Below are positions 3,001-35,184 of a stretch of 35,184 nt of DNA, piece by piece (the stretch's first letter is position 1; each line of letters starts with the position of its first letter). The translations under genes and the position numbers were made by a program. Under the pieces are notes generated by a model. That model was not told where the DNA came from, did no database searches, and saw only the letters and a list, made by a program, of their open reading frames with translations. The DNA is from a virus, in IMG/VR virus record IMGVR_UViG_3300042346_000208, positions 1-35,184 of that record, one strand, 5' to 3'.

Positions 3001-6000
3001 GGAATCCGTAGTTGTTGGTGGCTCCAGTTAAGTTTGACTGAACGCCGAAGCCGTATTGACTAGTTATAGCTGAGTTTGCGCCTATCGTACCTTGTTGCGC
3101 TTGGAAATGCGTCAGTAGGTTTAGCGTAAAATTATTAGCCTGCGTCGACGGTAAACTTAGATATGTGGTATGAGCACTGGTCACATCAGACTGAATTGTA
3201 GGATCAGTATAATGATAATAAACGCTGGTAGCTCCTGAAGAATTTCCCGCATATTTTAGTCTTGCTGCCGATGTTATTGTAGAATTAAACGCGAAACGCC
3301 CTTGATTATCAATTCTAAGCCTTTCTGTAGAATAATTAGCGCCATCAGCCGTGGTGCTAAAAGTCAACCTACCTGGCATATCGTTCGCGCTGGGAGTTCC
3401 GTCTACTTGTACGCTAATAGAAGCGGCTGGAATGTAATTTGTTCCATCTGATCCGCCCCAAACTAAGTTTCCGATTTGGTCTCCTGAAACAACTATTGTG
3501 TGATTGTTAGGAGAAACGGTACTTCTAGTTTTAGTGAAATCAATATCAGCTCCATAAATGTCAGCGCTATATCTTCCTATAGCTAGACCCTGAACGCTAT
3601 GATGGGCGGCGATTTGTACAGTAGCTTTGTTGCCGTAATGCGACGTGTACGCAGATGTTAACCCGCTTAATACTCTACCATCATTAGTGATTACAAAAGG
3701 CGTACCATCAGGATTAGTGCTATCCTCAACTACTAATGCATTGCCTGAACCAGTATGAGTTATTCTCAGAGCATCAGTACCAGAACTTGATTCTATAATT
3801 TGATTTCCTGATACATGAAGGTTTGCTGATGGAGAACTTGTTCCAACTCCAACATTTCCTACGAAAACGTTATTAGCAGTACCAGCAGCATAGAAGTTAT
3901 ATCTACCAGTTCCTGAATTAATAGCAGAATAAAACCCGTAGTTATTTGTTGCTCCTGTTAGGGAGGAAGATACGCTAAAGCCATAGCTGTTTGCTCCGGA
4001 ACCGCTCGCCAAGTTATAAATAGATTGAGATTGCGAGTCAATTCGCATTACTTCCAGTTGTGTACCAGATCCATTATCAGCAAAAAATGATAAACCTATA
4101 TTACTTGATGATGTCCCTCGATAATGTCCTATAGAACTGTATCTATCAGTCCTATCAGAAGCAAACACTAATTGAGGGGTGGCAGTGCTATTAGTAGCTA
4201 TAGTAGAAAACAAAAGCAATTCTGCAGTTGGCGGCGCTGTTATATTACTTGATGCCCGCGATAGCGTAGTCCCGCCACCCTGCACTTGAAATTTATTGTT
4301 AAGTGCTGTAGTGCCAATCCCCACCCTACCCGCGTTATCAATCCTCATCTTTTCAGTCGGGCTAGACGCGCCATCAGCCGTCGTGCTAAAAGTCAACCTA
4401 CCTGGCATATCGTTCGTTCCAGGAGTACCGTCTACTGCCGCCGTAATATCCGCAGCGCGAACGAAAGCAGTGCCATCTGAACCTTGGAAACTAACTTGGC
4501 CTAGTAGTGTGCCTGATCCTACGCTTGCATGCGTACCGACAGTGCCACTATTGCTTTTTGCAAAGACAAATGAGCCAGTTTGTGCGCCAGTGGCGAACCA
4601 AGCGGTAGCCCCATAAGCCGCCGATCCTGCAACAAGCCCATGTTCTTGAATAACAGGAGTAAATAATAACCCGTTGGCTGGGTTTACAGCATCAGCGGCA
4701 ATAGTATTACCGATTACCACAATACCCGCTTGGGTTATGACAAAAGGCGTAGAATCAGGATTAGAGCTATCCTCAACAACCAAAGCGTTACCTGAACCCG
4801 TTTGAGTGATTCTTACAGCATCAGTAGAAGATGCTGCTGATGTTATTAATGATGAAGCAGATACAGACGATCCTGTTATATTACCAAAAGATACATTATT
4901 GGCTTGGAAATCCGCTATTCTAAAAGAAGAATTTGAGGTATCTATATATGGAGATAAATCGGTTTGTGGTAAATATTGATCGAATACTTTCCAGTAACCA
5001 TCTGAAGCATCTCTGAAGAATCCTGCGTTTCTAGCTATTCCGTCGTTATATTTTCCAGCAAACCCTAGATCCGGATTAGCAACATTAGATTCGCTATTAA
5101 GATAAATCATATTATCTTTAATTGCTAAATTATTAGCGCTGACAGTTGTAACGTTACCAGAGAAAGTTACGTTACCAGTAACTAATAATGAAGAATTAAT
5201 TGTTACAGGACCAGCAAAATAATTTTCAGCAGTACCAGCGGCATAGAAATTGTAACGGCCTGTATTTGCAGCGATAGCTGAGTAAAAACCATAGTTATTT
5301 GTCGCTGATGTTAGGCTCCCGTCAGCATAAAACCCATGCTGATTAGTAATTGAAGAATTTGCTCCAAGCGTAAAAAATGACGCTTTATTATGAGTCAAAT
5401 TGCTTAAATTAAACGAAGCAGCTTGAGTGCTAAGATACGAAGAATTGTGTGTATATGTATTAGTTTGAGCTGAACTTACAGTAGTATCGTTGAAAATTCC
5501 GGACGCGCTTGTGCCAGAAGAAATTCCCGAAGTTCCGCCGCCTATACCAATACGCTCGCTACCAGGATAAGTTCTGCCGAAAAGAACGTTTTGTAAACTA
5601 TTGATTCTAAATGCTTCAGTAGGGATAGTTCCGCCGTCTCTGGTAGTACTGAATAGTAGACGACCTGGCATATCATTTACGTCTGGAGTGCTGTCTACTT
5701 CAGCAGATATTTGCGCTGAACGGATTTGATTTGCGCCGTCATTTCCTAAAAATACTACAGAACCCAACGTATCGCCTGCTTGAACTATAGTATTAACATA
5801 AGGATTTGAATTCCTAATTTTTCTCAAATATAACTCAGCGCCAACTACATCTACACTTGCTCTTGTCAACATGACCGGCCCTTCTGAGCCGACTGACATT
5901 ACGTTTAATTTTGCATTGGTGTAAGTTGCCACTACGCCAATATTTACATTTCCGTTGGAATCAATAACAAAAGGAAAACTATCTGGATTCGCGCTATCTT

Positions 6001-10121: not shown

Positions 10122-10343
10122 TTAACCTTTTTCTAAAATCTTTAACATTAAATCTTTAATTTCTTTTATATCAGATTTAATATCATCCACTTCAGACTTA
10201 ATAGTATTTATTTCGTTTTTTTGGGACGCTAATATATTTCTTCTATTCAAATAATCTGTCAATCCTTGAGAATCTTGATTTATTAATGTATTAGTTTCAA
10301 TATCTTTTACAAAACTAGTCCCTTGTATTTTTACTAATTTCAT
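10122..10343 (-). CDS. Small coiled-coil virion-associated protein
   Basis: The protein has 73 residues. The N-terminal half (KIQGTSFVKDIETNTLINQD) looks like a short beta element, and the C-terminal half (NEINTIKSEVDDIKSDIKEI) is a clear heptad coiled coil. Its ATG overlaps the stop of the DUF4815 gene in an ATGA junction, so it is probably translated by coupling. Small proteins of this shape sit beside large structural genes in T4-like phages of aquatic bacteria, but I know no proven function. A role as assembly factor or small linker for its large neighbours is inferred from position only. Confidence 0.75.
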   Translation of the reverse strand: MKLVKIQGTSFVKDIETNTLINQDSQGLTDYLNRRNILASQKNEINTIKSEVDDIKSDIKEIKDLMLKILEKG

Positions 10344-13300
10344 TGTTTACCTAACTTATCGTTTTCTTTAGCAGGTAAAGCAATACATCTAAAATCATAT
10401 ATCTTAGGAACGAAAGTTTTATCCGAAGTTGTCATTAATATTTTAATAGCAAATTCACTGAAAGACGTAGGACTAAACGTTTCTCCTAATGTATTATTAT
10501 AAGAAACATAACCTTGATCTACGCCATCAACACCAGGAGCAAAACTAAATTCAAAAGATTCGTTTCTAGTTTTTGAATATAAAGAATCGCTGTTTCTTGT
10601 TTTAGTCATCAATTGCCAATTTTGATTTTCAAAACGATCGGTATCGAATCTATTTTTTATTTTATAATAAACATGAATATCAGTTCCTTGAGGACGATAC
10701 GCAGTTAAAAATACAGCTAAATCTTCAGAATCGAAATTAGTATCTAAAACTACTTTCTTAGTAAAGTATTTCGCTATACCAGATCCACCGGAAGCAGAAG
10801 TTTCCCCATTCACTATAACAGAAACGTTAGAATTACCAGATCTGGTTGCTGCGTCAGTTACTGTTATGGTTGGAGTTTCTATATATCCATATCCAGGATC
10901 AGTTAAATAAATATAATCTATTTTTCCTCCAGTAACATTAGCTTTTGCTAGAGCTGTTTGACCAAATCTTCCAGTTGGAGAAGAAACGGTTACTTGTACT
11001 GTAGTATTATTATATCCAGTACCCTGCGAATCTTCATTAATAATAATAATATCATCAGAAAGTTCACAATTATTTATAATATTTTCTATAGTATATAAAG
11101 TAATACCTGCATCGGATATCATTGGTGATATATTATCATCATAAGAAGTTAATATCGCATCCAACGAGAAAGAAGTTGAAGAATTAGAACTTAATAATAA
11201 CCTTTCCCCTCTTCTATCGTCTAATACAATATCCGTCGGTAATGCAGTCCCATATTTCCCTGGAGTTACGAATTTTGGAGTATCATAAACATTATCTTTT
11301 GTTAACGTTCCATACTCGTAATATAAACTCGCCGCAGGAGGAACAAAATCTGTTGTAGTAACGTTAAATGCATCGTATAATATATTAGAATTAGAAGTTG
11401 CTAGATTTGTATTAGCAACATTCGCTGTACTAATTGTATAGTTTACGCTATCCTCAATCAGAGTTCTGGTAGGAGCGCCTTTAGGAACAATAAATCTAAC
11501 GGATGGATTTTGTGTTATATTAAATTTACAACGATCTATCACAAACATTAGACTTTCGTTTGGATCAGTTACCCAAGTAACGGCATTTTGAGATCTAAAT
11601 ACTGAACCAATATAAGGAGCTGTTCCAATTACTGGAGTATTAGTTGGAATAGAATCAGTAACAGTATTTCTATACGTCGATGGAATCATTTTTGATCCAT
11701 TTTTAGCAACGTGTACATAATATTCTTTACTTTCTGATTTCAATATAAACGCATAGAGTTTATCTGGATAGATATAAACAGGAACCGCAAACTTAAATTC
11801 TGTATAAGCTGAAGCGCTTGTATAGAAAAACTCTTTATCGCTAGGAGATAATCTCTTAACATCTTTCTTTTCTTTTATTACTATAGAATGATCTAAAGTT
11901 TCTCCTGAAGGAATTCCGCCGTTTGTTCCAACTATAGATAAAGTAATAGAACTATTATCTCTGTTTCCAGGTATACTATAGAAGAATACTTTTATTGAAT
12001 ATAAATACGTTCCTCTTGGATAATTTTTAGAATCGATCATGAAAGTTTGAGCTAACGGATCGTATGGGTTATAATATTCGAATTTAGATATTGATGTAGA
12101 TGTACTTATTTTAGTTTGTTGCCTTTCGTTAGTAGCAATCAAAGTATTCTTCAGAGAAGAAGGAGATCCAGAAACTGCATCTAATCTAGTTTTTTGAGTA
12201 AATAATCCTTCCGAATAAAAAGTTCCTTCTGCCCAAGTAGAAGAATCAATTTCTTCGCCAATTCCTCTATTATCTACCCTGAATACTCTTTGTCCACTAT
12301 GGAATTGTCCTGTAGGAACATTAAATATGGCAAAATATTTCCCGAATGCGTCTGTAGAAAACTTTCCTATTGAATATACATCGTTTGTTGCATATTTTAA
12401 TTCTTTATCTAGAGTCAAGTTTCTATTTTGAGTATTAAATCCTGTAATAGTTGCGTTAGATCCTGCTCCAGCCCCAGCTACGATATAGAAAGTATTTCCT
12501 ACTATATCAGTACCAGTCATATTTTTAGATATGGAAGAATTTGCTTGGACAGATAATTTTACAACATTATTTGGAGTTATTGCAGAATCGCCGAATATAG
12601 ATCCTCCCCAATGAATACAAGTTCCGTATGTATAAACTCCGCTTAGAGCTATTGATTTATTAACTGGGGCATTAGTGCTATCGAATTTTCCTACATGTAT
12701 TGTTATGTTTGATCCGGAAGTTTCAATACCATAATTTCCATTAGAAGAAATTATATTAGGGTTGTTTCCATCGCTTATCACATATAATAATCCAGTCCCA
12801 TCTCCAGATGAAGATTTCCCAACAACTTTAGCAGTAGGTTTAAAGGTTGTAGAATTGGTATAATATCCAATAACATCACCTTCTACAAAATTATTGGCTC
12901 CTGCGGTTAATTTTATTACGTTAGGTTTTCTTACATAATTATCTACATTAATTTTATCAAAATAATTTCCTAGTCCGTCCGTATTTTTTAATCCAGTACA
13001 ACCTACCAAAATTTCTTGCGCTCTAATCCAAGGAGCAATACTTATATCCTGAACGAAATCCATATTAACATCATATGTGTTATTTAATTTGGAATATTCA
13101 CCTAATATATTATTTTGTTGTTGGGTTATTGTTTGTGTGTATGTATCTGTAGTGGTAGTTTGAACAGTATGTTTAGCATAACCTACAAGATTTCTCGCTT
13201 GTTGTTCTGTATATCCTTGATCTAATAACCATTGAAGATCTTGTCTACTAACTTCTTTATTAGTAAATTGTCCATGGTTTAATCTTTCTTGAATAGTTTC

Positions 13301-16300
13301 TATCGTTTGCTTGTCGCTGCTGGTTAATTGCGTTGTACCGGATATTGTTTGATAATCTCCAGTATACATCAAATTAGTTTGACCTGGAGTAGATTTCCAA
13401 ATATTGAAATCTCCTTGTAAGGTGATGCTGGCTGCTATTTTATCGTCAATCCAGTTATCATAATTTGGACTTAAAGAAAGTTTACCTTCTCTTTCTACTG
13501 AAATTGCAAAAGGGTTTACGCTGATTGGATCAGTTAATTCATTTGTTGCATAAGGTTGAGAAGTTAATATTTCTGATGTATATGGTAAAGTATAATAATT
13601 TACAAAATTATCTTTATGTATTTTATAACTTAATGCACTTATTTCAGCATCAGATAAAGCTCCATTATTATAGACTAAAGCTATATTCTTTAGAGCAACG
13701 TTTTTAATATCTTTAGAGCAAGTTAGATACTTGAGCCTTCTGTTTATCGCTGCATTGTAATCTTGATTATTTCCATCTACAGTAGAATAGCTAGAAAAAT
13801 CGTCAGTCATGATGCCATTTTTAAATCTATTCAATCCATAACCGTCGGTTATTTGCATTTTTGTTGCAGATTGTTCCAACGCACTAAGGGCTGTATAATA
13901 TTCAACCTGATTAATTCTATTTTCTAATCCAGCAATATCAGTCATCCTATATCTTTTATGTTTGAGTTTTTCAATACTCAAATCCGGAGAATAAGAAGCC
14001 AATAATTCCCCTGGTATATAACTTGTATAAGGATTGTGATATAAATTCGCTATAAGTAAAGAGCCTTCTGGTTCAGTTGGAAGAGAAGCTTTTGTTGATG
14101 GAACTCCTTCTAATATTTGAAAAGATTTATCTTTGTTTAATATCAACCTATCCTTTCTTTCTAAATAGAACGAATAATCCGTCACGAAAGAATCTGTTGG
14201 TATATAAGCTCCTTTTAAATTGGGATTTGCTGAATATACATTAAAAGAGAAAGTCGATAAAGCGTTCTTTCTTACTCTTCTAAAATCTATACAATCTCTT
14301 AGATTATAAGAAACGCCAGAAGAACTTAAGAATAATGGAATTTGTCTATAATCGTCTGGCTTTGAAGAACCGTCTACATAAGAATATTTACTGAAATATC
14401 CATCTCCGCCGCCATGTTGGTAATAATCAACAAGTATAAGAATATTCCCTACGGGTTTTGGACGTCCTGGGATTAATTTTATCGAAGCATGATCATAATA
14501 TGTATCTCTCTGACCATCATCGAAAGAATAATTATTTGTTATATCATAAGAAGAATTTTGTAACATTGCTACAGTAGGAGCGGTAGCAGGGTTTTTAGTA
14601 TCAATTATTCTCTTTATGTATTTCACATCGGAAAGATATAAAGATTGATTATTCCCTGAATTAACTATTCCTGCTTTCTTTATGTATATTTGTCCTGTAG
14701 AAACCAAAGATCTATCATCAACGTAAGTATTACCTAAACCATCAATATTAGTCATTACTGCGGTTGAGGTTATTGCTTTATTATTCGCTGTAATTAATTG
14801 TTTAGTTTTTACTATACGAGAATCATTAGCATTGGTAATGAACACTTTAGCTATTACTATAGCATCAAAGTTATAAGGTAAATTCGTAACTAATGTTAAT
14901 GTCGTTTGATCAACACTTAAAGTCGCGCTAACTCCATAAGTATCCCAGGAAATTATATCTCCATTTTGTACTGTGGTATTAGTACCTCTATTTGTGACAA
15001 TTATAATATAATTATTTTTTATTGTATCAGAAGAACTTCCTTCGTGTAAAACTACTCCGTTAAGCGTAGATAAATCTAAGTCAGCTCCGGTAGTAGCGTT
15101 AAATGTAACGTTACGGAAAGTTTGTGTAGAATAATAAGAACTGTCCGATAAAGAATTTACAAAAGGATTACCGATTTGATAAACCAATTCAGGTAAAGAA
15201 TTATTTTCTATAAAAGTAAATCCGCTAGGAATACCATCGACTTTACTGGCTGTATAAATGTTTGCTTTAGAATTAAATACTGCAGGGTATGACGCCTTAT
15301 TGGTATAAGTTAAACTTTCAGCGTCTTTAATATCAAAATTAAAAACAAATTCTGAGGTATTATCTGGGTTATAAGACCATACTCCATTAATGTATGCCGT
15401 TTTAGTAGATCCGTTATAACTCGCTATAGTAGCAAATTCCCCAGCATTTGTTCCTTTTGTTATAAGCATAACAACGCCAGTATATGCGTTATTCGTAGAA
15501 GATAGTTTTCCGGAATTAAAGAAAGTTACACTATTTGCTGAGGATGATACTACATTTCCGGTTAATGTTTTGGTGTATACATTATCAATATAAGATTTAT
15601 AAACCCAATTATTTGTATTACTACTTCCTAAGCTAGAATTAAATTCTATATTTCTCATAAATGCAGTAGCAACTACTGTGGAATTATAAGAATTTGTAGA
15701 AGAAAGACTTATATTAGCATAATCTACGCAATGTATATCTATTTCTTGAGTAGATGTTACATCAAAAAATGTAGTATTTCCTTTTACGTTATTTACATAC
15801 AAATAACTTCCAGGATCGTTTGTTCTAGCAACTGGATGATTTCCGGAAGATGCGGTAGTTCTTGATCTATTCGATACTAATTCTACAGGGTATGGATTTT
15901 CTGTTCTATATCCACCAATATAAGCCAATCCTTTTCCGATATTAAGTATATAAGTATCGGCGTTTGCGGTATTGATTTTTGTTACTAATTTAAAATCGTC
16001 TACTACATAATCTCCATTACTTTCGTATTCTCTTTTCGCGATATAATCGTTTATTAAAGAATATTGAGTTTCTTGTACTGTTGGGTATATGGAGCCATTT
16101 ATAACTCTTACCAATTCTATAAAGTTTTGATCACTTCCTATAGAAAGAGATCTAGAAGATAATGTTAATTTTATAACATATCTATCAGCTCCAGGAGCTT
16201 GGAAATTAGAAGCGCCCAAAGCTGGATCTAATAAAGAATTATCATCAACATAATCATAAACCGTTTCGGATATTTCTAATCCTACTCTTGCGCTAGGAGT

Positions 16301-16879
16301 TTTACTGTATTTTGATAATACAATAGTAGATTCAGGAACTTCTACGAAATTTCCTTCGACATAAAATACGCCTTTAGTAATAGAAATTACAGAAGAAAAT
16401 CCTGTTGAATTTGATGCTATAGCAAGAGCAGCGGCATTGTTATTGGAATATAAGGAAAATATCGTATCTCCGTCTACGAACATTTTTCCTGATTTATAGG
16501 AAACTATTAATGTTGGAGGATCTGAATCTCCTGCGGACCCTGTAGCTTCTACTACAGACAATACTTGAGCTATAACTTCGCCTGTAGAATCAGTTACCAT
16601 TATTCCATCAAAATCATTAACATCTATTAATACGCCTTCGTATTCTGTTTGTAATTTTATATAATGACAGGTGAAATTTGTTGTAATCTGACCTCCAGTT
16701 ACAGGAGAATTTCTCTTAAAGATATTATCAGCAAATTTAGTAATTTGATCTTGTAATATGGTTTGAGCTTGAGTTAATTCTCTAGCTTGGACAGATACAC
16801 CAGGTTTAAATAAGATTCTATGGAAGTTTTTTGTAGAATCAAAATCGTCGTAATATGGGTCGGAGTTGAAATTAATCAT
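10340..16879 (-). CDS. Very large DUF4815 baseplate-region structural protein
   Basis: The protein has 2,179 residues. The N-terminus (DPYYDDFDSTKNFHRILFKP, then VQARELTQAQTILQDQI) is the hallmark of DUF4815 structural proteins of T4-like cyanophages and relatives. A second conserved block at roughly residues 975-1025 contains YRMTDIAGLENRINQVEYYT and the motif LNRFKNGIMTDDF. Near residues 1940-2030 lies a beta-rich module (GTGYNN, then DPGYGYIETPTITVTD) resembling ones in gp6 and gp8. No enzymatic residues are recognised. It starts after a good AAGGA ribosome site and a late-promoter match at 16904-16911. Following gp8, it sits where T4 has gp9-gp12, so it may replace gp10-type outer wedge or pin proteins; this is inference from position. 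Confidence 0.88.
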   Translation of the reverse strand: MINFNSDPYYDDFDSTKNFHRILFKPGVSVQARELTQAQTILQDQITKFADNIFKRNSPVTGGQITTNFTCHYIKLQTEYEGVLIDVNDFDGIMVTDSTGEVIAQVLSVVEATGSAGDSDPPTLIVSYKSGKMFVDGDTIFSLYSNNNAAALAIASNSTGFSSVISITKGVFYVEGNFVEVPESTIVLSKYSKTPSARVGLEISETVYDYVDDNSLLDPALGASNFQAPGADRYVIKLTLSSRSLSIGSDQNFIELVRVINGSIYPTVQETQYSLINDYIAKREYESNGDYVVDDFKLVTKINTANADTYILNIGKGLAYIGGYRTENPYPVELVSNRSRTTASSGNHPVARTNDPGSYLYVNNVKGNTTFFDVTSTQEIDIHCVDYANISLSSTNSYNSTVVATAFMRNIEFNSSLGSSNTNNWVYKSYIDNVYTKTLTGNVVSSSANSVTFFNSGKLSSTNNAYTGVVMLITKGTNAGEFATIASYNGSTKTAYINGVWSYNPDNTSEFVFNFDIKDAESLTYTNKASYPAVFNSKANIYTASKVDGIPSGFTFIENNSLPELVYQIGNPFVNSLSDSSYYSTQTFRNVTFNATTGADLDLSTLNGVVLHEGSSSDTIKNNYIIIVTNRGTNTTVQNGDIISWDTYGVSATLSVDQTTLTLVTNLPYNFDAIVIAKVFITNANDSRIVKTKQLITANNKAITSTAVMTNIDGLGNTYVDDRSLVSTGQIYIKKAGIVNSGNNQSLYLSDVKYIKRIIDTKNPATAPTVAMLQNSSYDITNNYSFDDGQRDTYYDHASIKLIPGRPKPVGNILILVDYYQHGGGDGYFSKYSYVDGSSKPDDYRQIPLFLSSSGVSYNLRDCIDFRRVRKNALSTFSFNVYSANPNLKGAYIPTDSFVTDYSFYLERKDRLILNKDKSFQILEGVPSTKASLPTEPEGSLLIANLYHNPYTSYIPGELLASYSPDLSIEKLKHKRYRMTDIAGLENRINQVEYYTALSALEQSATKMQITDGYGLNRFKNGIMTDDFSSYSTVDGNNQDYNAAINRRLKYLTCSKDIKNVALKNIALVYNNGALSDAEISALSYKIHKDNFVNYYTLPYTSEILTSQPYATNELTDPISVNPFAISVEREGKLSLSPNYDNWIDDKIAASITLQGDFNIWKSTPGQTNLMYTGDYQTISGTTQLTSSDKQTIETIQERLNHGQFTNKEVSRQDLQWLLDQGYTEQQARNLVGYAKHTVQTTTTDTYTQTITQQQNNILGEYSKLNNTYDVNMDFVQDISIAPWIRAQEILVGCTGLKNTDGLGNYFDKINVDNYVRKPNVIKLTAGANNFVEGDVIGYYTNSTTFKPTAKVVGKSSSGDGTGLLYVISDGNNPNIISSNGNYGIETSGSNITIHVGKFDSTNAPVNKSIALSGVYTYGTCIHWGGSIFGDSAITPNNVVKLSVQANSSISKNMTGTDIVGNTFYIVAGAGAGSNATITGFNTQNRNLTLDKELKYATNDVYSIGKFSTDAFGKYFAIFNVPTGQFHSGQRVFRVDNRGIGEEIDSSTWAEGTFYSEGLFTQKTRLDAVSGSPSSLKNTLIATNERQQTKISTSTSISKFEYYNPYDPLAQTFMIDSKNYPRGTYLYSIKVFFYSIPGNRDNSSITLSIVGTNGGIPSGETLDHSIVIKEKKDVKRLSPSDKEFFYTSASAYTEFKFAVPVYIYPDKLYAFILKSESKEYYVHVAKNGSKMIPSTYRNTVTDSIPTNTPVIGTAPYIGSVFRSQNAVTWVTDPNESLMFVIDRCKFNITQNPSVRFIVPKGAPTRTLIEDSVNYTISTANVANTNLATSNSNILYDAFNVTTTDFVPPAASLYYEYGTLTKDNVYDTPKFVTPGKYGTALPTDIVLDDRRGERLLLSSNSSTSFSLDAILTSYDDNISPMISDAGITLYTIENIINNCELSDDIIIINEDSQGTGYNNTTVQVTVSSPTGRFGQTALAKANVTGGKIDYIYLTDPGYGYIETPTITVTDAATRSGNSNVSVIVNGETSASGGSGIAKYFTKKVVLDTNFDSEDLAVFLTAYRPQGTDIHVYYKIKNRFDTDRFENQNWQLMTKTRNSDSLYSKTRNESFEFSFAPGVDGVDQGYVSYNNTLGETFSPTSFSEFAIKILMTTSDKTFVPKIYDFRCIALPAKENDKLGKQ

Positions 16880-31543: not shown

Positions 31544-32274
31544 TGCCTTTTACAAAAAATTATTCTTTATTTCATACAGTAAATTATAAGGATAAAATGT
31601 ATATATTTGATCCATTCGCCTTTGGTACAGGTGGTTGGAAGATATATCATTCAAATTCTGGTAAAATGGGTATAAGCGTTGATAAGTCTTTACAAAAAGA
31701 ATTAAACGAATTGATGTTTGGTAACGGAGAATTGCCGAACATGTTAGAGAGGCTTAAGATAGCGAGCGAAGAAGAAAAACAAAATTTCAAAGAAATATCT
31801 TTATCGTGGCTTCAGTTAAAAGTAAGAGGGTTGAAAGAACGAAAAGAAGTCGAAGGAATGAAAACGACATCAGTCTTTATTCCCGGAGGAATGTACTATT
31901 ATTCTTATGACGCAAAATATAAAGATATACTTCCTATTTGGGATAGATTTCCTCTTACTATAATTTTAGAAATTTATTCCGATGGATTTTTGGGTTTAAA
32001 TTTACATTATATAGAACAAGAAAAGAAAGCCGCAATACTATCGTATTTGGTAGAACGTTTTGGTAATTTAAATGAAAATAATTCCATATTAAAACTAGCT
32101 ATAACATATAAAATAATTTCCTCAATTTCTTACAAAACAGAATTTTCTCCTTGTATAAAAAGATATTTATTTTCTCATGTAAATTCTAAAATTTTACCAG
32201 TAGAACCGCACGAATGGGCGTATTCCATTTGGATACCAGCTCAAGATTTTCAATTTAATCAAGGTAAAAAATAA
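31543..32274 (+). CDS. Conserved T4-type virion protein, possible DNA end protector gp2
   Basis: The protein has 243 residues; T4 gp2 has 274. The most family-like segment is at residues about 117-157: GGMYYYSYDAKYKDILPIWD, then FPLTIILEIYSDGFLGLNLH. A second block follows at 195-230 (SPCIKRYLFSHVNSK and EPHEWAYSIWIPAQDF). I recognise this segment as widespread in T4-like phages. I link it to gp2 because genes 2 and 4 are adjacent in T4; this is position-based and tentative. gp2 in T4 is a minor head protein that shields injected DNA ends from RecBCD. Its ATG overlaps the gp4 stop (TAATG). No transmembrane segment or enzymatic motif is seen. Confidence 0.55.
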   Translation: MPFTKNYSLFHTVNYKDKMYIFDPFAFGTGGWKIYHSNSGKMGISVDKSLQKELNELMFGNGELPNMLERLKIASEEEKQNFKEISLSWLQLKVRGLKERKEVEGMKTTSVFIPGGMYYYSYDAKYKDILPIWDRFPLTIILEIYSDGFLGLNLHYIEQEKKAAILSYLVERFGNLNENNSILKLAITYKIISSISYKTEFSPCIKRYLFSHVNSKILPVEPHEWAYSIWIPAQDFQFNQGKK

Positions 32275-32921
32275 TGTCCAACGTCAAAAATTTTATATCT
32301 AACTTTAAAAAAACCGAACTTGCAAGACCATACAATTTCGATGTTAGTTTTTATCCATCAGAATCAGTAATTTCTACGATAATAAGTCCTTCTTTGGCTG
32401 GTAAAGCTCTACAATTAGAATTATTGAAAAACGGAAGAGACTTTAAAATGAAATGTGAACAAGCAGAACTTCCTGCTAGAACTTTTTCTACAGTAGAACA
32501 AAGAATATACGGTTATACAGATAAATTTCCAATATCAACTTCATACGAACCTATTACATTAGTTTTTATATGTTCAGATGATATGAATGAAAAATATTTT
32601 TTTGATTTATGGATGGAAGTTATCTCTATGACTAATCCTATAGGAATTGCTGTTTCTGCAGCAGCAGATTTAGCAGAAAATTTACTTGGTATAGATACTG
32701 GTTTTGGAACAAGATTCGATCTTCAATACAAAGATAATTATAGTTGTATGATAGAAATTACTCAATATGATTTAACAGGAAAAGCTTCATATAAAGTCAT
32801 GTTAATAGCAGCTTTTCCGAGGTCCGTTAATCAAATGCCTTTACGTTGGTCTGATACTGGTTCTTATCACAGAGTAGCTGTTACTTTTGAGTATAAATAT
32901 TTCATGATTGTCCCTTTATAG
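32274..32921 (+). CDS. gp54: Baseplate tail tube initiator, gp54/gp19-type tube fold
   Basis: The protein has 215 residues. It has the tail-tube family pattern: NFISNFKKTELARPYNFDVS, FKMKCEQAELPARTFSTVEQ, PITLVFICSDDMNEKYFFDLW, YKDNYSCMIEITQYDLTG and HRVAVTFEYKYF. gp54 binds the gp48-capped hub and is the first ring of the tube. T4 gp54 is longer (320 residues), and gp19 itself (163) has the same fold, so a tube-related protein is certain but the exact paralogue is not. With gp48 present and a hub cluster following, gp54 is the better choice. Its ATG overlaps the preceding stop. Confidence 0.72.
   Translation: MSNVKNFISNFKKTELARPYNFDVSFYPSESVISTIISPSLAGKALQLELLKNGRDFKMKCEQAELPARTFSTVEQRIYGYTDKFPISTSYEPITLVFICSDDMNEKYFFDLWMEVISMTNPIGIAVSAAADLAENLLGIDTGFGTRFDLQYKDNYSCMIEITQYDLTGKASYKVMLIAAFPRSVNQMPLRWSDTGSYHRVAVTFEYKYFMIVPL
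32892..32899 (+). promoter_or_regulatory. Possible internal late promoter before gp26
   Basis: TATAAATA inside the last codons of the gp54-like gene, 58 bases before the gp26 ATG. gp26 has the only spaced start in this part of the unit (36-base gap) and a good GGAG site at 32947-32950, which fits a separate transcript. A chance match in coding AT-rich DNA is possible. Confidence 0.35.
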
Positions 32922-32957: not shown

Positions 32958-33683
32958 ATGTTACCTAAAATTGAGTCGCCTGTTTTTGAATTGACTTTGC
33001 CTATTTCAAAACTTAAAGTTTCATATAGACCTTTTTTGATTAAAGAACAAAAAATATTATTAATGGCTAATGAATCTGACGAGAAAGATTTCCTTTACAA
33101 AAATGTTAAACAAATTATAACTAATTGTTGTTTATCTGAAATAAATGTAGAAGATTTATCTATTGTAGATATTGAATATTTCTTTTTACATTTAAGGGCA
33201 AAATCTGTGGGAGAAATTGTTGATACGAAATATAGATGTCAACATTATGTAGAAGATAAAGAGGATTATTGTAATAATTTAATGGATGTTTCATATAATA
33301 TTCTTGATACCGAAATAGATACAGATAATTATAACGAGTTAATACAATTAACTCCTAATATGGGAATAAAAATGAAATACCCAGATTATAAAACTATCGA
33401 AAATGCTTATGGAAATTCTGGGTCTGATGAGGAAGATGTTTTTGGAGTGATTAAATCTTGTATTGATTATATCTACGATCAAGATAACGTTTATAGTTTG
33501 AAAGAAGCAACAAAAGAAGAGATAGATGAATTTTTTGATTCATTAAGCGTGAAACAAATAAAACAAATTAAAGATTATTTTAATAATTTACCGACGATCA
33601 AGAAAGAAATAAAAGTAGATTGCAATAAATGCGGATTTAATCATGTGATTAATGTGAAGGGGTTGATGAATTTTTTCGATTAA
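32958..33683 (+). CDS. gp26: Baseplate hub assembly protein gp26 (tail assembly chaperone type)
   Basis: The protein has 241 residues; T4 gp26 has 208. Family features are KVSYRPFLIKEQKILLMANE near the N-terminus, DIEYFFLHLRAKSVGEIVDT (71-90), MKMKYPD-like residues at 138-143, and a helical C-terminal half with VFGVIKSCIDYIYDQDNVYS (161-180). In T4 it helps build the central hub and is not a major part of the finished tail. Four cysteines (C94, C105, C222, C225) form a possible zinc site. The stop at 33681 follows a slippery heptamer that would shift ribosomes into the gp51 frame. Confidence 0.88.
   Translation: MLPKIESPVFELTLPISKLKVSYRPFLIKEQKILLMANESDEKDFLYKNVKQIITNCCLSEINVEDLSIVDIEYFFLHLRAKSVGEIVDTKYRCQHYVEDKEDYCNNLMDVSYNILDTEIDTDNYNELIQLTPNMGIKMKYPDYKTIENAYGNSGSDEEDVFGVIKSCIDYIYDQDNVYSLKEATKEEIDEFFDSLSVKQIKQIKDYFNNLPTIKKEIKVDCNKCGFNHVINVKGLMNFFD
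33657..33677 (+). promoter_or_regulatory. Probable -1 ribosomal frameshift signal
   Basis: The heptamer T TTT TTC (33671-33677) is in the correct phase of gp26 (AAT TTT TTC) for tandem -1 slippage. A Shine-Dalgarno-like AAGGGG at 33657-33662 lies 8 bases upstream, as for bacterial -1 stimulators such as dnaX. The -1 frame is open from 33677 to the gp51 stop at 33856. No strong downstream stem-loop is evident. Confidence 0.8.
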
Positions 33684-33856
33684 TTTTTAGTCATGAAAAC
33701 TTGAGCAATTATTATAAGGTTAATTTTATTTTGATCCAGCATCACAAATACAGTTTAACCGAATTAGAAAATATGCTACCGTGGGAAAGAGAAATTTATA
33801 TAATACAATTAGAAAATTACATAAAAGAACAACAAGATAAATCCATTAATGGATAG
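33677..33856 (+). CDS. gp51: gp51 hub assembly protein, expressed as gp26-gp51 frameshift product
   Basis: This frame encodes 59 residues, ending SLTELENMLPWEREIYIIQ followed by a charged helix, the signature of gp51 and of downstream-frame tail assembly chaperones. In T4, gp51 is a catalyst of hub assembly. There is no ATG between the entry point and the conserved part: the ATG at 33693 is in another frame and stops after three codons, and the only candidate is a TTG at 33701 without a clear ribosome site. The preceding residues RLIFSHENLSNYYKVNFILI also look family-like, supporting translation from upstream. The fusion would be 299 residues (gp26 residues 1-240 plus 59). Confidence 0.85.
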   Translation, partial: RLIFSHENLSNYYKVNFILIQHHKYSLTELENMLPWEREIYIIQLENYIKEQQDKSING

Positions 33857-33865
33857 GAAAAATAA

Positions 33866-35184
33866 ATGTCAATATCAACAGTTCTGAATCAAATTAAAAA
33901 TGCCAATCGAGATTTCCACACAAATCCTTCGGCGCCAGTAAACATAAATTTGACAGAAGGTTTCGATTCGCCGAAAGAAAATGATAAATTTTCAGAAATT
34001 AAATCTGAGATTAGAGATTTAAAGGCTACTATTGATAATAATTTATTTGGGATAAATTTACAATTAAACCAAATGAGAAACGCTACATCAGCGCAAAACG
34101 ACTTACAGAATATTCAAGAATTGAGCGGATCTACTATTCTTTCTGATATAGGAGAAATGCGGGATGATATTAATAAAATAGAAAAAAGAAGTTTATCTAC
34201 GCAACAAACAGCAGTTAAGGAGAATGAACAAGGGTTTTCTTGGAAAGACGCTTTAGGTGTCGCAGGAAGCGTTGCAACAATAACTCAATTAGTATCTAAA
34301 TTTGTTGATCTTAATACGGTATTTGGTGATATAAAAAATTCTATTTCTGGAATTATAGAAAGTTTAACCAGCGAAAATTCCGGAGGTTTATTAGGCGGGT
34401 TATCAGAAATGATAAAAAAATCCTTTTCCGGATTTTTTGAAGAATTAAAATCTGATTTAGAAAATTTTAAAATTCAACCTTATATCGAAAATTTTAAAAA
34501 CGAATTAAAAGAACTTAATTTAAAAGAACTTTTTTCTTCTCCTATTAAATCTATAGAAAATTCTTTATCTGAAATTTCTGGTATTAATTTTTCAGGAACT
34601 CTTGCTGGAGTAAGGGACGAAATATCAAATATTAATTTTAAAGAAGATATATTCAAACCGATGTTTGACGCTTTAAATAAAGTCTTTATAGAATTTTTTA
34701 ATGTCGATTTAAAAGAAAATTTAAAAAATATCGTAAATAATTTTACTGAAATTATGAAATCAGTAAGTTCTTCTATGCAAAATTTTGCTGGAATTATGGA
34801 AACTGCATATAAAAGTATTCCTTCTTTTATACAAATTATGAAGGAATCTTTAACAGGTTTTGGAAAAAATTTAGATGATATTTCTAGAATTATTTGGACC
34901 ATAAAGAATCCTATTGATAGTATATCATACGATAGACAACTATCTATTTCTCGTGATCCATTTGTTGAACCTGCTGTAAGAGAACGCGCCAAAGAAGAAA
35001 TGAATAGAATGAGGGAAGCTGGAGAAGCCCCTCCTGAAAGAAAATTTGAGAGTACCTTTAAAAATTTATTGGCTCCATTAGGAACGACAACTCCATTAGG
35101 AACGACAACTCCATTAGGAACAGCAACCACATTAGGAACGACAACCGCAGGAACAGCAACTCCATTAGGAACGGCAACCACATT
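33866..35184 (+). CDS. Probable tape measure / hub protein (3' end outside window)
   Basis: The frame is open for 439 codons to the edge, with an AGGA ribosome site just before the ATG. The sequence is mostly amphipathic helix with evenly spaced Phe, Leu and Ile (KSFSGFFEELKSDLENFKI, ELKELNLKELFSSPIKSIEN) and one hydrophobic stretch (ALGVAGSVATITQLVSKFV). This style is typical of tail tape measures. Position directly after the gp26/gp51 chaperone pair matches the usual chaperone-then-tape-measure order of long-tailed phages. T4 gp29 is the functional counterpart, but I cannot claim sequence identity. It ends in the window with a Pro/Gly/Thr linker. A hub protein followed by an enzymatic domain downstream is the alternative. 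Confidence 0.65.
   Translation, partial: MSISTVLNQIKNANRDFHTNPSAPVNINLTEGFDSPKENDKFSEIKSEIRDLKATIDNNLFGINLQLNQMRNATSAQNDLQNIQELSGSTILSDIGEMRDDINKIEKRSLSTQQTAVKENEQGFSWKDALGVAGSVATITQLVSKFVDLNTVFGDIKNSISGIIESLTSENSGGLLGGLSEMIKKSFSGFFEELKSDLENFKIQPYIENFKNELKELNLKELFSSPIKSIENSLSEISGINFSGTLAGVRDEISNINFKEDIFKPMFDALNKVFIEFFNVDLKENLKNIVNNFTEIMKSVSSSMQNFAGIMETAYKSIPSFIQIMKESLTGFGKNLDDISRIIWTIKNPIDSISYDRQLSISRDPFVEPAVRERAKEEMNRMREAGEAPPERKFESTFKNLLAPLGTTTPLGTTTPLGTATTLGTTTAGTATPLGTATT
35075..35184 (+). repeat. 18-bp in-frame repeat encoding PLGTTT-type linker
   Basis: At least five 18-bp units (CCATTAGGAACGACAACT and variants), one shortened to 15 bp at 35147-35161. They encode PLGTTT, PLGTAT and TLGTTT-like hexapeptides and continue to the window edge. 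Confidence 0.9.

Follow-up and report, generated by a model that had tools for sequence, protein, structure and literature searches.

A putative gp26-gp51 tail chaperone gene in T4-like phages, probably expressed as short and long forms through a -1 frameshift

A gene 26 homologue and a gp51-like domain lie in overlapping frames near the right end of the viral DNA studied here, the entire IMG/VR record IMGVR_UViG_3300042346_000208 of 35,184 bases (hereafter the window). We consider it very probable (roughly 0.9) that gp26 and a gp26-gp51 fusion are made from one message by a -1 slip, as the short and long members of a tail assembly chaperone pair. Most ribosomes would stop at the TAA codon and release gp26 of 241 amino acids (TAC-N), and a minority, with Phe-tRNAs on TTT TTC, would shift back by a single base onto TTT TTT and go on to translate the gp51 domain, yielding a fusion of 299 amino acids (TAC-NC). 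In phage lambda, both chaperone forms, gpG and gpGT, bind to the tape measure protein, with binding to the tail tube protein residing in the T part (PMC5009743). By analogy, the tape measure protein here may be coated with many short and few long copies, the gp51 tails of the latter bringing in tail tube subunits. The initial annotation of this DNA had proposed such a G/GT-like pair, and the proposal is supported by the conservation of the slip site, selection in the -1 frame, missing start codons, gene position and the composition of gp51 in T4.

On the + strand, the genes near the right end of the window follow the order of head closure, DNA end protector, tail tube, gp26 and a tape-measure-like gene (Table 1). 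The gp26 product matches the Pfam family T4_baseplate (PF12322) over residues 9-240 (1e-54; 186 bits, against a cut-off of 24.5) and phrog_150 (2.8e-59). The -1 extension matches phrog_634, annotated as baseplate hub assembly catalyst, over residues 2-55 of its 59 (3.9e-23), and also columns 234-278 of phrog_150 (8e-6). Both parts sit between the tail tube and tape-measure-like genes, with the same placement in relatives, and this position is the slot of G and GT between the tail tube and tape measure genes of lambda.

Table 1. Coordinates of the gp26-gp51 locus and its neighbours in the window
Feature	Position	Strand	Evidence or remark
Tail tube gene, 5' neighbour of gp26	32274..32921	+	phrog_45 4.8e-28; Pfam Phage_TTP_2 1.7e-6
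gp26 homologue, putative short chaperone (TAC-N), 241 aa	32958..33683	+	PF12322, phrog_150
AAGGGG, Shine-Dalgarno-like purine run, possible stimulator	33657..33662	+	8 nt 5' of heptamer
Slippery heptamer T TTT TTC, predicted -1 shift site	33671..33677	+	in gp26 phase; conserved
gp51-like C-terminal domain, -1 frame, 59 aa + stop TAG	33677..33856	+	phrog_634; purifying selection
gp26 zero-frame stop TAA	33681..33683	+	3 nt past heptamer
Tape-measure-like gene, 3' neighbour, truncated by record end	33866..35182	+	phrog_5493 tail length tape measure 3.8e-4; position as in relatives

The 3' end of gp26 (33657-33683) reads AAG GGG TTG ATG AAT TTT TTC GAT TAA, so that the slippery T TTT TTC in X XXY YYZ phase and the AAGGGG ending 8 nt upstream, both pointed out in the initial annotation, can be read directly. 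Past the heptamer, the -1 frame holds 59 codons up to the stop at 33854-33856. It is open through gp51, as had been claimed, although it opens at 33653, 18 nt earlier than the heptamer, and not exactly at it. The further claim that gp51 has no start of its own stands for the first residues of the extension, with no ATG upstream of the conserved core, and has to be qualified by a TTG at 33701 (opening an ORF of 51 amino acids) and by a first ATG about 31 codons in, inside that core. An open stretch of 59 codons arises in 0.2% of mononucleotide shuffles of the extension's composition. The heptamer by itself is unremarkable, because TTTTTT occurs 70 times in the AT-rich window and another in-phase site, T TTT TTG, lies inside gp26 at 33032.

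The weight of the argument is therefore carried by comparison with relatives. IMG/VR loci and GenBank phages supplied 191 gp26 loci. They were selected for resembling gp26 or gp51, irrespective of the heptamer, and are not a random sample; in 185 of the 191, gp26 has T TTT TTN in phase close to its 3' end, and an open -1 frame follows. Every locus with a short adjacent gp51 carries it (185/185, of which 151 are non-redundant), whereas of the 338 F-[F/L] pairs at other places in these genes just 33 form it, so that the conservation is more than chance would give; pure chance as the origin of the heptamer is ruled out by this in-phase conservation. Among the 151 non-redundant loci, the codon before TTT invariably ends in T (NNT), a wobble base with a frequency of 38% in the background; the heptamer finishes with C in 117, T in 24, A in 9 and G in 1; and the zero-frame stop falls 3 nt past the heptamer in 132. 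The extension is 53-80 amino acids long and open in all loci with the heptamer. Isolates bearing it infect Synechococcus, Prochlorococcus, Pelagibacter, Vibrio, Sinorhizobium, Rhizobium and Pseudomonas, and include members of Kyanoviridae, Pootjesviridae and Emdodecavirus, as well as Schizotequatrovirus KVP40 and Chakrabartyvirus pf16; the heptamer and the -1 frame are also present in four further cyanophage isolates. Rhizobium phage RHph_I1_18 (locus L022, near 3190-3230) has overlapping T TTT TTA and T TTA AAC motifs, and its zero-frame stop lies about 25 nt beyond them.

The six loci without T TTT TTN belong to T4, Acinetobacter phage 133, Serratia phage X20, two Ackermannviridae and Vibrio phage D510. 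In the first three, gp51 lies on the opposite strand. A survey of T4-like phages for the heptamer and for the missing gp51 start, which had been suggested along with the original claim, is thus positive outside the T4 subgroup, and a separate gp51 with no slippery site, the arrangement named there as speaking against the frameshift, was found in T4 and two other Tevenvirinae. As far as the sequences tell, this exception would reflect a different architecture in which short and long forms are still encoded. The two Ackermannviridae and D510 lack a classical heptamer, but their gp26 genes continue, in an open -1 frame, into a gp51-like domain. Their sites read G ATT TTC, G GTT TTC or A CTT TTC (L020:3224-3400; L195 near 2247; L021:3200-3390), and the slip signal is possibly of a different kind, similar to that of phage Adele.

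T4 itself has genes 26 and 51 in divergent orientation on opposite strands, with no slippery site. T4 gp26 is homologous to gp26 of this phage, and T4 gp51 combines a gp26-like domain with, C-terminal to it, the domain found here in the -1 frame: its residues 13-185 align with gp26 in profile comparison (E 3.7e-7, probability 93%), and residues 208-244 align with the -1 extension in the expected order and place, with an E value of 0.0036 and an hhalign probability of no more than 9%, the match being this short. Given this composition, T4 seems to carry the long form as a gene of its own, full-length and on the opposite strand, whereas in the window a short gp51 adjoins gp26 in the -1 frame. 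A similarity of KVP40 gp51 to the C-terminal end of T4 gp51 is already noted in the KVP40 record. Together with the lambda-like gene slot, the composition of T4 gp51 argues that gp26 would act as the short and gp26-gp51 as the long chaperone. The two T4 proteins are listed as hub assembly chaperones, gp51 being required for assembly and absent from the final particle (PMC3004832); evidence placing T4 gp26 in the hub is also cited there. On this view, genes 26 and 51 of T4, which have traditionally been described as hub factors, would be explained as the two-gene version of a short/long chaperone pair. Vladimirov and colleagues reportedly regarded the frameshift as a conserved feature of several T4-like groups, with T4 using separate genes 26 and 51 in its place.

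The short gp51 might instead be a separate small protein, reinitiated at a non-ATG or overlapping start after the gp26 stop, the -1 overlap being incidental. An ATG is present near the start of the extension (residues -3 to 8) in 50 of the 151 non-redundant loci, so that a separate gp51 could also be made in these, and annotators placed such starts in the GenBank records of Sf-CH11, S-PM2, KVP40 and Vibrio F86; in this phage, the TTG mentioned above would serve. However, reinitiation leaves the heptamer unexplained in all 185 loci, those bearing an ATG included. Moreover, the first 13 residues of the extension contain no ATG, GTG or TTG in 53 of the 132 in-register loci, and yet these residues, read in the -1 frame, show protein conservation: 57% of the single-base codon differences in them are synonymous in that frame, compared with 29% and 17% in the other two, and the same measure in the 30 loci nearest the window gives 64% against 30% and 21%. 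This synonymous excess indicates selection at the protein level, in the -1 frame, on codons that precede any possible start. In the annotation of isolates such as P-SSM7, S-CAM1 and ACG-2014d, gp51 is a stub of 31 amino acids or missing, which again speaks against reinitiation, as does T4 gp51, where the gp26-like domain is covalently attached. We regard reinitiation as very improbable. A joined gp26-gp51 feature was absent from the GenBank records examined, where gp51 is separate, a stub or missing.

A fusion could also be produced by slippage of RNA polymerase on the run of six T, rather than by ribosomes. The site is a homopolymer, and the run reaches at least 7 T in 24 of the 151 loci; against this, a C follows the six T in 117 of them, a run of six is short for transcriptional slippage, and the phase is always X XXY YYZ. 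In some relatives, a covarying stem begins 5-6 nt downstream, as is typical of ribosomal stimulators. Polymerase slippage is, in our judgement, somewhat less probable still than reinitiation. Least probable of all, and by a clear step, is that the heptamer is a by-product of a conserved GLxxFF protein motif in an AT-rich gene, since, even though T4 gp26 ends in GLKEFFELL with no frameshift and T6 runs are common in the window, T4 and Winklervirus X20 encode FF by the non-slippery TTC TTT after a codon ending in G or A, the gp26 of Acinetobacter phage 133 lacks FF altogether, and NNT TTT is fixed in 185/185 loci with a short gp51 compared with 33/338 elsewhere.

The ribosomal frameshift may be assisted by elements on either side of the heptamer. 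A Shine-Dalgarno-like string rich in G and A occurs within 20 nt upstream in 142 of the 151 non-redundant loci; because the conserved [E/K]GL codons lie in the same place, its conservation may be due to coding, and it is a candidate stimulator only. The RNA 3' of the heptamer is more stable than its synonymous shuffles, with a mean z of -1.45 (s.e.m. 0.17) compared with -0.32 in a control window. In 28 loci (L032, L054, L064, L080, L094 and 23 others; first 48 nt), a common stem of 11 bp starts 5-6 nt past the heptamer. In these, 96.1% of cells are paired, a figure that is partly built in, pairing in this register having been the criterion for choosing the loci, and nine cells are changed on both sides, which, the loci being related to each other, do not amount to nine independent events. 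The covariation exceeds that of all 500 shuffles and of every slid control. At one pair, which varies as T-A, G-C and A-T, the second base of a gp51 codon for Glu, Ala or Val changes together with the wobble position of an Ala codon, and such double changes, accompanied by an amino-acid change, are hard to explain without RNA pairing. The odds seem to us evenly balanced that in this cyanophage-like subgroup the stem tunes the frameshift, with pairing overriding the choice of amino acid, and that phages with no stem use the heptamer and the purine run alone. If so, these phages would offer a natural series of stimulators for one chaperone ratio. The stem is absent downstream of the heptamer in the phage studied here (z +0.79). 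A second hairpin, GACTATC-TCAC-GATAGTC, lies directly 3' of the gp26 stop in a group of marine IMG/VR loci (L002:2655-2680 and L003-L012), with a z of -4.2 in L002.

Beyond the T4-like phages, a counterpart is gpG/gpGT of lambda and of long-tailed phages in general (Xu, Hendrix & Duda 2004), where a short form and a -1 long form are likewise encoded between tube and tape measure. Lambda differs in that it uses another heptamer, no sequence relation to it was detected, and gp26 of the window is larger (241 amino acids). Structure modelling covered the window and the IMG/VR loci, and the AlphaFold model of gp26 has a pLDDT of 92.3. A Foldseek search of the PDB with this model returned no significant solved tail chaperone; HK97 gp13 (2ob9) was matched at noise level only, at a probability of 0.11-0.12, and 3fgx at a non-significant 0.25, and a profile search of the PDB with gp26 gave nothing meaningful. 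Among viral models, Foldseek recovers other gp26-type proteins.

The chaperone genes of T4-like phages are reported to have been identified by Vladimirov, Gautam & Davidson (2022, Virology 566:9-15), in the same gene families as here, in a paper whose title suggests a mechanism other than frameshifting. The paper on phage Adele credits that study with poly-T -1 signals in T4-like TAC-N genes (PMC12846349), and the PRFect paper states, with reference to the same study, that the short protein and the fused one have a gene each in some T4-like phages (PMC10885494). Adele (Vandenendeviridae/Andersonviridae) resembles the present phage in having a -1 shift near the end of TAC-N at a poly-T signal, and in a C-terminal part that is unannotated or hypothetical in databases (PMC12846349); it differs in its motif, GTTTTT instead of T TTT TTN, and belongs to other phage families. 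Since the arrangement had already been proposed for T4-like phages in 2022, the finding made here, which we take to be correct, is not new in kind, and, the general point having been published earlier, it adds a member and comparative support and no new principle. Searches of the openly available literature found no earlier paper that names a gp26-gp51 frameshift for cyanophages. The evidence points to a correction of annotation, with one frameshifted chaperone gene in place of a separate, stub or missing gp51, in a very abundant marine phage group.

Two further features of the window concern neighbouring tail genes. The tape-measure-like gene enters a tandem repeat of LGTTTP/LGTATT-like units at 35080-35184, where it is truncated by the end of the record. 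A protein of 2179 amino acids is encoded at 10340-16879, between baseplate wedge and tail fibre genes, and has its best match in phrog_358 (function unknown; 7.9e-301).
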